Part shown: in pieces, positions 12,228 to 42,777 of the stretch
Numbering within the stretch: the stretch's first letter is position 1
How the letters are laid out: each line of letters begins with the position of its first letter
Assembly: GCF_000725385.1 (NCBI RefSeq)
Contig: NZ_CP008884.1
Coordinates: forward strand, 4,464,001-4,528,000
DNA: 64,000 nucleotides
Direction: 5' to 3'
Origin: Dyella japonica A8
Lineage (GTDB): Bacteria > Pseudomonadota > Gammaproteobacteria > Xanthomonadales > Rhodanobacteraceae
Position numbers and translations under genes: made by a program
The notes under the pieces: generated by a model
What the model saw: only the letters and a program-made list of their open reading frames with translations
What the model was told of the DNA's origin: nothing
The model's database searches: none

Positions 12228-12261
12228 GGCAGGCGCGCGCCCGCGAAGGCATGCGCCGTAC

Positions 12262-12423
12262 CGTCTTCTCTCATCCGGACTTTCTGGAAGCCATCGCTGG
12301 CTGCCAACCGTCGGCTCCGGCATCGGACCGGATCTGCTGACCTTCCGATGATCTGGAAGCGCTCGCGGGCTCGCCCCGAAGGGCCTACCGCCGGTGGGGA
12401 ATCTCACCCCGCCCTGAAGACGT
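12262..12423 (-). ncRNA. FMN riboswitch (RFN element)
   Basis: Minus-strand sequence matches the RFN consensus in order: P1 strand CGTCTTC, then GGGCGGGGTGAGATTCCCC, ACCGGCGGTAGGCC, GAGCCCGCGAGCG, a variable helix, GCCGACGGTTGGCAG, GTCCGGATGAGAGAAGACG closing P1. It senses flavin mononucleotide and lies 137 nt upstream of ribE, so it should switch the ribE-ribBX operon off when FMN is plentiful. ribD, 4 kb away, has no such element in the window. Confidence 0.96.
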
Positions 12424-12521
12424 CGTTTGTGGTTTGCCGGCGAACCGGCCGGGCGATTCTACACCAACCCTTGTGTGAGCCGCCCTCCCGTTTGTCCACG
12501 GTGGCGAACAACGCGTTGCAT

Positions 12522-39894: not shown

Positions 39895-40794
39895 CTACAC
39901 CTCGTGGTGCAAGCCTTCCGCCTGCACCGCGCCACTGCGGGGCGCCAGCTCCACAAGGTACATCGCCGCCATCACCAGCGCACCGCCTGCCAACATGCGC
40001 CAGGTCAACTCGTCATGACCGAAGGTGACCGCGAAACCTGCCGCGAATACCGGTTCCAGCGTCATCACGATGGCGGCTCGCGTGGGCGACAGATGGGCCT
40101 GCGCCCAGGTCTGCACCAGCATCGCGCCGGCACCGGCCACCAGCGCCATGTAGACGACGGCGGCCCAGGCACCCAGGTCGGGCGGCAGCGACGGGCCGGT
40201 CGGCAAGGTCGCCAGCAGGCAGATCACCGCGATCACCATCATCTGCACGGTCGAGAGCGCAAACGCGCTGCCGGGACGCGACCACGACCCCAGCCCCACG
40301 ATATGCAGGCCATACAGTGCCGCCGACGCCAGCGTAAGCCACACGCCATAGCCGATGCTGAAGCCGTGCAGCGCCAGCAGGCCAAGGCCGCCCACCGCCA
40401 GCAGCACGGCAATCCATGTCACCGGCGGCAAACGCTGGCGCAACAGCACCGTGCCGAGCAATGGGGTGACCACCACGTACATGCCGGTGACGAAGCCGCT
40501 GATGCTCGCCGAGGTGTGCTCAAGCCCGGACGTCTGCAGCAACTGCGCCACGCCGTAGATGGCGCCCAGAGCGGTGCCCTGCCACCACTCGCGACGGCTC
40601 AGGCGCAATAGCGGGCGATGGAACAGCACGGCCATCGCCAGCGCGGCGATGAGGAAGCGCACCGCGAGGAAATCGGCCACCGCCATGCGCCCCACCAGAT
40701 CCTTGATCAGGAAGAAGGTGGAGCCCCAGACGGCAGTGACAGCGACAAGGCCCAAGGTGGCCAGCGACGATGCGCGCGACGCCGGCTTGCTCAT
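39895..40794 (-). CDS. EamA/DMT-family exporter
   Basis: A 299-residue protein with ten predicted helices in two EamA halves: VTAVWGSTFFLIKDLVG opens the first; TRAAIVMTLEPVFAAGFAVTFG in the second is the typical inverted repeat. Exports an unknown metabolite. The ATG at 40794 overlaps the glycosyltransferase stop by 4 bp (ATGA). Confidence 0.9.
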   Translation of the reverse strand: MSKPASRASSLATLGLVAVTAVWGSTFFLIKDLVGRMAVADFLAVRFLIAALAMAVLFHRPLLRLSRREWWQGTALGAIYGVAQLLQTSGLEHTSASISGFVTGMYVVVTPLLGTVLLRQRLPPVTWIAVLLAVGGLGLLALHGFSIGYGVWLTLASAALYGLHIVGLGSWSRPGSAFALSTVQMMVIAVICLLATLPTGPSLPPDLGAWAAVVYMALVAGAGAMLVQTWAQAHLSPTRAAIVMTLEPVFAAGFAVTFGHDELTWRMLAGGALVMAAMYLVELAPRSGAVQAEGLHHEV

Positions 40795-41702
40795 GCAGCG
40801 TCCTTCGGGCGCTTGCGCGCCATCAGCCGCCAGAGCTGGCCGGGGATCTGCAGCAGGAAATGCGACCAGATGCCCAGCCACACCGCCACGGCAATCCAGG
40901 GCTTGCGCGCATCGGGATCGAACTTGCGGAACCAACGCCACATGCCGCGATGCTTGTGCCGGCTGACGAACACCGGGCGATGCCGGCTCGAGGAACCCTT
41001 GCCGTGCAGCACGTGCACGTCGCCCGCCAGCATGACCCGATAACCCGCGTCGCGCACGCGGCGGCACAGGTCCAGGTCTTCGCAATGCAGGAAGTACTCT
41101 TCGTCGAAACCAGCAAGGTAATCGAACACGCGACGCGGCATCAGCATCAGGGCGCCGGATACGGCCTCCGCCTCGACCAGTTGGTCCGGCATGGGCCCTT
41201 CGATGTTGATGCCTTCGCCAGGGCGCTTGAACAGCGTATTCAACGCGCGGCGCATCAGCGGATCGCGGCGATACGACGCCGGATCGGGCGTGCCGTCCTC
41301 GTCGCACACCACCGCGCCGATCACGCCGGCACGCGGGTTGGCTGCGAGCAGGCCCAACAGGCGCTGCAGCGTGGCGTTATCGATCAGGCAATCGGGATTG
41401 AGGATCAGCAGCGACTTGCCACGCGACTTCGCCGCGCCGCGATTCATCGCCGGCCCGAACCCGAGGTTGGCGTGGTTGTAGATCACATGCAGGCGTGCGT
41501 CGCTTTCGTGCGCGCGTGCGATGGCCTGCGGAATACCGTCGGACGAGGCGTTATCGACCAGGATCATTTCCAGCGGCACATCGCACGCCAGCACCCGGCG
41601 CACGCAGTCGCGCAGGCTCGGGCCACTGTCGGCCGCCACCACGATCACGCTGAGCGGCAACACGGAGGACAAGGAAGAAGTTGCGTCGGTATTCACAGCC
41701 AC
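40791..41702 (-). CDS. Family 2 glycosyltransferase (rhamnosyltransferase-like)
   Basis: A 303-residue GT-A enzyme: LSVIVVAADSGPSLRDCV, LEMILVDNASSDGIPQ, NLGFGPAMNRGA, LLILNPDCLIDN (metal-binding region), AVSGALMLMPRRVFDYLAGFDEEYFLHCEDLDLCRR. WbbL-like enzymes add rhamnose in cell-envelope glycans; the sugar here is unknown. A hydrophobic, membrane-associating stretch closes the protein. Coupled to the EamA gene downstream. Confidence 0.9.
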   Translation of the reverse strand: MAVNTDATSSLSSVLPLSVIVVAADSGPSLRDCVRRVLACDVPLEMILVDNASSDGIPQAIARAHESDARLHVIYNHANLGFGPAMNRGAAKSRGKSLLILNPDCLIDNATLQRLLGLLAANPRAGVIGAVVCDEDGTPDPASYRRDPLMRRALNTLFKRPGEGINIEGPMPDQLVEAEAVSGALMLMPRRVFDYLAGFDEEYFLHCEDLDLCRRVRDAGYRVMLAGDVHVLHGKGSSSRHRPVFVSRHKHRGMWRWFRKFDPDARKPWIAVAVWLGIWSHFLLQIPGQLWRLMARKRPKDAA

Positions 41703-41744: not shown

Positions 41745-42037
41745 CTAGGGAAGCTCTGATCTATTCCCCGTACCCGTCACCGCACGGTAGGCACGCAACG
41801 CGCCGTCCCGGCGGTGAAGGCAGACTGGCCGTCTGTCGAAACGGCGGGACGGCGCGTTGCGCGCCTACCGTGCGGCCCCAACCCTTTGAATTTAAATGCT
41901 GGGGTGACGTCCAGAAGGCCCGCAGGGTGTGCCGCGCGGCTTGAACAGACGGCCAGTCTGCCCTGCGCCACGCGGCACACCCTGTGGGCCTTCTGGACGT
42001 CATGCCGGGTACGGGGAATAGATCAGAGCTTCCCTAG
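41745..42037. mobile_element. 293-bp nested-palindrome element (MITE-like) with 32-bp perfect terminal inverted repeats
   Basis: Terminal repeats 41745-41776 and 42006-42037 are exact inverted copies starting CTAGGGAAGCTCTGATC. Inside lie two hairpins: 41781-41810 with 41845-41874 (30 bp, one mismatch) and 41905-41936 with 41971-42002 (32 bp, one mismatch). Hairpin 1's loop contains CAGACTGGCCGTCTG and hairpin 2's loop its reverse complement CAGACGGCCAGTCTG, so the two loops could pair. No transposase gene. The CTAG at the outer tips could be a target duplication of the IS5 kind, but that is inference. It fills the 41703-42033 gap. Confidence 0.75.
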
Positions 42038-42777
42038 CGTCGCCCCTGCCCCAGCGCTTCGTGCAAGGGCACCGGCACGCCGTCACTGCACCGCGCCAGC
42101 CATGGCTGCTCGCCTTCCCAGCCGCTGAGCTGCCATCCCATCATGCGATGGGTACGGCCGCTTTGTCTGTCCCACAGTATTTCACCGCGACCGCCGGGCA
42201 GATTCGCGACGAACCATCGCCCCTGCGGGCTGGCGCAATAGCGCGAGCTGGTTTTCTCGATCACGGGCCCGCACGCGAACACGTAACGTCCACGCCCTTC
42301 ACCGGTCGGCTCGAATCGCGCGGGACCGGCCGCACTTTCGAATGCAGCGGTGGCCTCGTGCCACTCCGCCCGCGCCAGTTCGATGATATGCGCGGGTGGC
42401 CCGATGGGAGCCATCGCCAGCTCGCGCCATTCCGGTGTTGCCGCTGCCGCCGGGCTACGCCGGACGCGATGATCGAGCAGCGACTCCATCAGCACCACCA
42501 GCGAAAAACCGGCCAATGCACCGAGCAAGGCAGCGCCCCAGGCCATCAGGTCGCCTCCCAGTGCGCGCTGCACCGCGAACAACAGGCCCGGCAGCCCCCA
42601 GCGCAAGGCACGCCGGCACAACTCCGCATAGTGGACGATGCGCCGGTCGAACCGCACCGCGCCGACCACCGACAGCAACACCAACGGCAAACCCACCCAC
42701 CAGGGCAGCAGCGCAACCACGCAGGTCCACGCCGCCGCCGGCACCATCCGCGCAAGCCAATGCGCGAAGGCAGCCAC
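42034..42777 (-). CDS. Membrane-anchored hypothetical protein
   Basis: A 247-residue protein: two to three hydrophobic segments (residues about 10-37, 60-75 and 79-97), then a soluble C-terminal domain (PEWRELAMAPIG..., CGPVIEKTSSRYCASPQG, WDRQSGRTHRMMGWQLSGWEG). I do not recognise the family. The start is probably GTG 42777, without a good Shine-Dalgarno sequence; ATG 42747 is an alternative. The TAG stop (42036-42034) lies inside the terminal repeat of the element next door, so the element set the C-terminus. 33 bp separate it from purL upstream. Confidence 0.65.
   Translation of the reverse strand: MAAFAHWLARMVPAAAWTCVVALLPWWVGLPLVLLSVVGAVRFDRRIVHYAELCRRALRWGLPGLLFAVQRALGGDLMAWGAALLGALAGFSLVVLMESLLDHRVRRSPAAAATPEWRELAMAPIGPPAHIIELARAEWHEATAAFESAAGPARFEPTGEGRGRYVFACGPVIEKTSSRYCASPQGRWFVANLPGGRGEILWDRQSGRTHRMMGWQLSGWEGEQPWLARCSDGVPVPLHEALGQGRR

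Follow-up and report, generated by a model that had tools for sequence, protein, structure and literature searches.

A miniature transposable element with IS5-type ends and nested, covarying hairpins of opposite mispair polarity in Dyella japonica A8

The 293-nt element at positions 41745-42037 of the 64,000-nt stretch of Dyella japonica A8 DNA analyzed here (the window) is a miniature transposable element (MITE) with IS5-type ends. Its features are probably best explained together by a MITE that is mobilized by an IS5-family transposase and in which one hairpin apex is present as two inverted copies, each acting single-stranded and read inward from its own end of the element. A folded RNA, in the form of two separately read hairpins, is the likeliest role, and recognition of single-stranded DNA is its chief rival. 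The ends are what usually defines a bacterial MITE; in this case, a large natural set of variants shows an interior that is constrained beyond what would be expected of a passenger. Because the variants are so many, the significance of MITE folds and RNAs to the element or its host becomes directly testable.

The coordinates of the features are collected in Table 1. Perfect 32-bp termini, two long imperfect hairpins, and loops that are reverse complements had all been claimed in a preliminary description of this DNA, and each is borne out. The terminal inverted repeats pair over 32 bp with zero mismatch, and over 35 nt at 97% when a wider pairing is considered. Hairpin 1 (P2) has arms of 34 nt and hairpin 2 (P3) has arms of 36 nt; both sets of arms are 94% complementary. 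The 15-mer CAGACTGGCCGTCTG at the apex of hairpin 1 is the exact reverse complement of CAGACGGCCAGTCTG at the apex of hairpin 2. Each of these 15-mers is near-palindromic, affording a 5-bp stem and a 5-base loop that reads TGGCC in hairpin 1 and GGCCA in hairpin 2 on the top strand. Because the 15-mers pair with themselves as small stems, only TGGCC and GGCCA are free for loop-loop pairing. Taken on its own strand, each hairpin shows a CAGAC-TGGNN-GTCTG-like apex. Outside the 13-base apex core, the likeness of the two hairpins is not significant, with 84 of 1000 shuffles scoring as well. Folded as single-stranded DNA, the element reaches -150.4 kcal/mol versus a shuffle mean of -60.3 (z = -22.7), a value equaled by none of 200 shuffles. 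Its coding capacity is small: apart from the neighboring ORF that reaches the right CTAG, the listed ORFs that overlap it encode at most 104 aa. The terminal repeat of AAV likewise has an outer stem that encloses two inner palindromes; the two are unrelated, the likeness is one of analogy only, and the element here is not known to act in replication.

Table 1. Features of the element, with positions in the window, strand, and supporting evidence
Feature	Positions	Strand	Evidence
Left CTAG, putative copy of a 4-bp target duplication	41745..41748	.	Uninterrupted GACTAGCGTCGCC at the orthologous L210 site
Left terminal inverted repeat, 32 bp, perfect; CTAG followed by GGAAGCTCTGATC, IS5-like end	41745..41776	+	Like motif flanks transposase genes in relatives
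Hairpin 1 (P2), 5' arm	41780..41813	+	Arm pairing, fold, covariation
Hairpin 1 apex, CAGAC-TGGCC-GTCTG	41821..41835	+	Sequence, loop comparison
Hairpin 1 (P2), 3' arm	41842..41875	+	Arm pairing, fold, covariation
Central spacer with small hairpin; few bases left in one subfamily	41876..41904	+	
Hairpin 2 (P3), first arm	41905..41940	-	Strand from mispair polarity
Hairpin 2 apex, CAGAC-TGGCC-GTCTG on the minus strand	41946..41960	-	Sequence, loop comparison
Hairpin 2 (P3), second arm	41967..42002	-	Strand from mispair polarity
Right terminal inverted repeat, 32 bp, perfect	42006..42037	-	
Right CTAG, whose TAG on the minus strand ends ORF 42034-42777 as its stop codon	42034..42037	.	

Comparison with related genomes reveals the locus without its insertion. 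Both flanks lie 3-99 bases apart (extrapolated) in 19 of 19 other same-genus genomes, compared with 293 here, and none of these loci gives an element match. The gap is 3-7 bases in five of the 19, and the widest gaps, 85 bases in L207 and 99 in L208, hold other sequence. The L207/L208 spacer, beside the orthologue of ORF 42034-42777, contains a GTGTATGTCGA motif that resembles the sister-class hairpin described below. At the orthologous junction of genome G010 (L210), CTAG is uninterrupted, and the element carries CTAG at both ends. Flanks are YTAR-like across the set; among the 95 of 98 elements that could be typed at both ends, exact 4-base agreement occurs in 24 (TTAA/TTAA in 15 and CTAG/CTAG in 8). 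In 90 of these 95, the bases adjacent to the two ends complement each other, so that a duplication of 2 bp (TA) would explain the flanks almost equally well. Insertion would target sites resembling CTAG or TTAA, frequently those at stop codons; at 11 of 83 gene ends that face an element, the stop codon ends four bases inside it. End type is identical at both ends in all 96 typed elements, with the remaining 2 of 98 untyped. Swaps between end types A and B require at least three changes on the core tree, and so low a minimum suggests that swapping is rare.

The element belongs to a widespread family. A single occurrence had been named in the preliminary description as the outcome that would speak against its proposal; a covariance model built from 42 elements finds relatives in 118 of 233 family genomes, own genome included, and in 20 of 26 genera (E<=1e-5, up to nine candidates scored per genome), yet 41745-42037 is the sole full-length close match in its own genome (one contig, 4.83 Mb). 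Seven further places in that genome are detected by the covariance model as more distant relatives, of which the one at 1346884 is doubtful. With a DNA query, matches are obtained in 15 of 20 genus genomes, again counting the own genome. Among genomes drawn from the order, 111 of 398 match the covariance model at E<=1e-7, with up to five candidates scored per genome, and matches are weaker outside the family. Near-identical copies reside at separate loci within one genome (L113/L165, 98.3% identical; L104/L146, 97.8%; L143/L144, 97.4%). An exact-pattern scan of the named genomes returned seven stretches, none recognized by eye as belonging to the family of 41745-42037.

Several variants of the layout were observed along the way. 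Two loci from an Ectothiorhodospiraceae MAG, L031 and L037, have the same end as 41745-42037 (TAGGGAAGCTCTGATCTATTC) and a like layout, with nested hairpins of other sequence; the two apices of L037 are near reverse complements of each other. Three class I elements, L005, L021, and L056, contain an extra small hairpin around CATGGATG, followed by GAGGAGCGAGG, inserted in hairpin 1. A short GTCCCACGGGACTAGCTTCGCGTCG-like insert is found inside the left terminal stem of L062, L193, L021, and L056; L062 has two of these in tandem. An isolated half end (GGGATGCTCTGATCT.TTC...) lies ahead of what is apparently the same gene in four genomes (L078, L079, L081, and L082) and may be an ancient fragment retained at its site.

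The preliminary description had also pointed to a search for a transposase with the same ends, and one was found. At 7 of 33 loci, a GG.ATGCTCTGA end is present on both sides of a gene matching PF01609 (DDE_Tnp_1). These loci correspond to six insertion sequence (IS) copies in three related genomes (G207, G079, and G190), L238 and L250 being one IS copy and L099 having been left out of the end check; L226, L232, and L246 have the end on one side only. The 347-aa protein of L222, the one copy tested, scores 350 bits against the NCBIfam model transpos_IS5_4 (cut-off 140) and is an IS5-family transposase, whereas the other copies were assigned by their PF01609 match alone and some contain stops. 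Copies L222, L233, and L234 are bordered by identical, non-palindromic 4-bp flanks, CTAA or TTAG. The IS elements L222, L233, L234, and L238 thus resemble 41745-42037 in end motif and in 4-bp YTAR-type flanks; unlike it, they contain a gene for a transposase and have no pair of hairpins beside the ends. Since the IS copies inspected share ends with the element and have no hairpins, the hairpins are not IS leftovers. These data suggest that the MITE is mobilized in trans, with an IS5-family transposase that would recognize the ends of the non-autonomous element.

The distribution of this transposase is patchy. Within the genus, 2 of 10 genomes match PF01609; the copies with shared ends emerged only after the search was extended to another 20 genomes of the family, 11 of which match. 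The own genome has no match to PF01609 or PF13358, and G007 and G010 have no PF01609 match, though G010 has many element copies; the transposase must therefore come and go. A scan of 10 genomes for the type A end gave matches in 9, and the nine stretches inspected among those with a single type A end contained ends or fragments of the element, or a solitary motif next to a gene, with no IS among them. A different end set, GAGCCTGTTCACGATCT, is common to the sister-class element L016 and to the PF01609 locus L224, which contains a stop.

A key question is whether the interior is maintained as structure. The RNAalifold structure of 42 elements comprises 69 pairs, and the covariation check of the stems that the preliminary description had called for is positive: two-sided changes are seen at 49 pairs (454 cells), and none of 500 shuffles reaches the observed level on any of five measures. 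Paired cells amount to 97.0% of the total, versus 81.5% after shuffling of the 3' letters and 33-40% in structures with slid partners. A structural role had been proposed on the basis of the complementarity between the loops. The constraint on the interior stands, with its controls passed; the joining of the hairpins through their loops is not supported.

The strand on which each hairpin is maintained can be read from its mispairs. A G-T mispair on the plus strand is an A-C mispair on the minus strand. In 98 elements, setting aside pairs for which over 50 of the 98 show G-T, P2 has 73 G-T versus 19 A-C cells and P3 has 19 G-T versus 109 A-C. For 67 elements of less than 90% identity, the raw G-T:A-C counts are 160:17 in P2 and 81:70 in P3, and they become 95:17 and 14:70 once one nearly invariant G-T pair per hairpin is removed. 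An aligner that does not favor G-T gives 98:38 and 18:94 for 53 elements. Counted by column, the polarity is 18:3 in P2 and 6:13 in P3 (Fisher p = 0.0009), where columns, like cells, share descent. Mispairs in the terminal repeat (P1) are unbiased at 48:48 (100 rows, two of them duplicated). Those found in a single element are likewise unbiased (7:7 in P2 and 10:8 in P3), so the bias resides in shared mispairs. Hairpin 1 seems to be kept as a single strand of the top strand and hairpin 2 as one of the bottom strand, selection being what the mispair polarity suggests. We read the terminal repeats as behaving like double-stranded DNA, and the strand signature thereby distinguishes the ends, as double-stranded DNA, from the hairpins, which would be kept as a single strand. 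Single-stranded DNA also tolerates G-T, so the polarity is no proof of RNA; of the two, RNA is the likelier form of the hairpins.

These observations allow a mechanism to be proposed. In the interior, one apex would be present twice in inverted orientation, each time as a conserved TGGNN loop borne by stems that vary and covary. Hairpin 1 would work on the top strand and hairpin 2 on the bottom strand, the element being read inward from each end. The likeliest working form would be RNA, produced by transcription entering from either flank. An inward transcript would meet the well-paired hairpin first, and that hairpin may bind protein or, by analogy with the cutting of Correia transcripts by RNase III, be processed.

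The genomic contexts bear on this proposal. Both neighbors of 41745-42037 lie on the minus strand: a family 2 glycosyltransferase (40791-41702) and ORF 42034-42777, which has no Pfam match. Across 100 context rows, two of them duplicated, elements lie between 59 codirectional, 29 divergent, and 12 convergent gene pairs and are therefore not confined to gene ends. Transcripts in codirectional settings would enter from the P3 side in 38 cases versus 21 from the other (p = 0.036). No transcript of a neighboring gene enters in the 29 divergent contexts, which counts against inward transcription. The spread of contexts also led us to reject a REP-like role at 3' ends. An intrinsic terminator was rejected as well, as no T-run was seen by eye after hairpin 1 or hairpin 2.

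The main rival to RNA is recognition as single-stranded DNA, whereby an HUH/Y1-type enzyme or a host factor would bind the exposed TGG hairpin, one per strand, and aid movement. In REPINs, too, strand-specific hairpins are arranged as an inverted pair, and the long conservation of a hairpin within a mobile element suggests a part in its own spread. We nevertheless consider this reading unlikely. Y1 genes (PF01797) are present in 6 of 10 genomes and were not found in G002, G010, G011, and G012, despite 5 to 40 DNA matches to the element in these four. Of nine Y1 loci, seven have other inverted repeats, and none has an element match better than E = 0.02. Moreover, the ends and flanks of the element indicate a DDE enzyme. 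Mobilization by RAYT or TIRYT proteins was rejected on this search of 10 genomes and the flanks of the nine loci.

The complementary loops might instead pair with each other. Were both hairpins formed on one strand, TGGCC and GGCCA could kiss and join them into one folded RNA or DNA, as the preliminary description had envisaged. Two 5-base loops are present in 95 of 98 class I elements, and loop pairs 1-5 are complementary in 92, 93, 94, 86, and 77 of them, respectively. The two variable positions contribute 190 combinations, of which 163 pair, more than in any of 5000 shuffles (mean 149.2), and loop mispairs favor T-G over C-A (25 versus 12). On the tree, co-change at loop position 5 leans in the expected direction (1.2 same versus 0.1 opposite per draw). 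Across independent tree pairs, however, co-change between the loops is not significant, with only 4-5 supported pairs, and the mispair polarity assigns the two hairpins to opposite strands rather than to one.

Sister elements of class II also argue against kissing. Sixteen were picked by eye: two from other same-genus genomes, five from the own genome, and nine from other families (L132, L140, L253, L258, L262, L263, and L271 were excluded because they were truncated, doubtful, or members of a different class). Thirteen of the 16 retain the TGG loop, although the partner apex, located by script in 14 of the 16, is a GTGTAT-GTCG-ATACAC-like hairpin unrelated to it; the loop thus persists where no complementary partner is present. 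The own-genome members, at 118016, 1226565, 1403032, 2516560, and 4249246 (L133-L137), have the same outer layout, each combining a TGG-type hairpin (TGACC in L133) with an unrelated hairpin of that kind. We therefore consider a kissing interaction improbable. The loops most plausibly match because the element holds one apex twice, in inverted orientation, their complementarity being a by-product of that arrangement. Counting G-T versus A-C mispairs arm by arm is a cheap way to discriminate loops capable of kissing from inverted hairpin copies.

Least probable is a functionless interior, an ordinary IS5 MITE whose arms are kept complementary by template switching or cruciform repair: palindrome correction could yield two-sided changes without selection, but it predicts neither TGG loops conserved across genera nor an orientation-tied mispair polarity that is absent from P1.

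Two inverted, inward-read hairpins on a MITE of IS5 type, the reading we prefer, find only partial counterparts among known systems. No Rfam family scores above its gathering threshold at 41745-42037 or in eight loci that include sister classes; the 16 sub-threshold matches (14 microRNA models, snoTBR2, and Ms1) are all far below cut-off. No title or abstract opening turned up by searches of an open-access library describes this element, and a search there with six element motifs gave unrelated papers only. The nearest known behavior, by analogy, is the cutting of Correia-element transcripts by RNase III and the mobilization of MITEs in trans by IS elements, both reported in PMC10969869. Correia/NEMIS and ERIC elements, as portrayed in PMC10969869 and PMC2649163, are likewise short and non-coding, with terminal inverted repeats and stable predicted RNA folds; the present element adds two nested, covarying, strand-polarized hairpins inside the terminal repeats. 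The inverted hairpin pairs of REP/REPIN sequences and of tyrosine-transposase TIR repeats, as described in PMC3733652, are also similar, and a GGGGTGAC stretch in the element fits the GGGGWSAS motif given there. The hairpins here are ~100 nt rather than 20-40, and no Y1 gene was found flanked by them. Membership in the REP/REPIN (RAYT) system was rejected on hairpin length and on the nine Y1 loci, which are without the element.

More tentatively, the family may be part of a mobile superfamily spanning the order, whose payload would be an inverted, strand-specific pair of TGGNN hairpins, acting as RNA or single-stranded DNA. Such a core could have acquired different sets of IS5-type ends and be kept because the inward-read hairpin recruits a factor for spread or for tolerance by the host.

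Elsewhere in the window, an FMN riboswitch (Rfam RF00050, 95.6 bits) is present at 12259-12425 on the minus strand.
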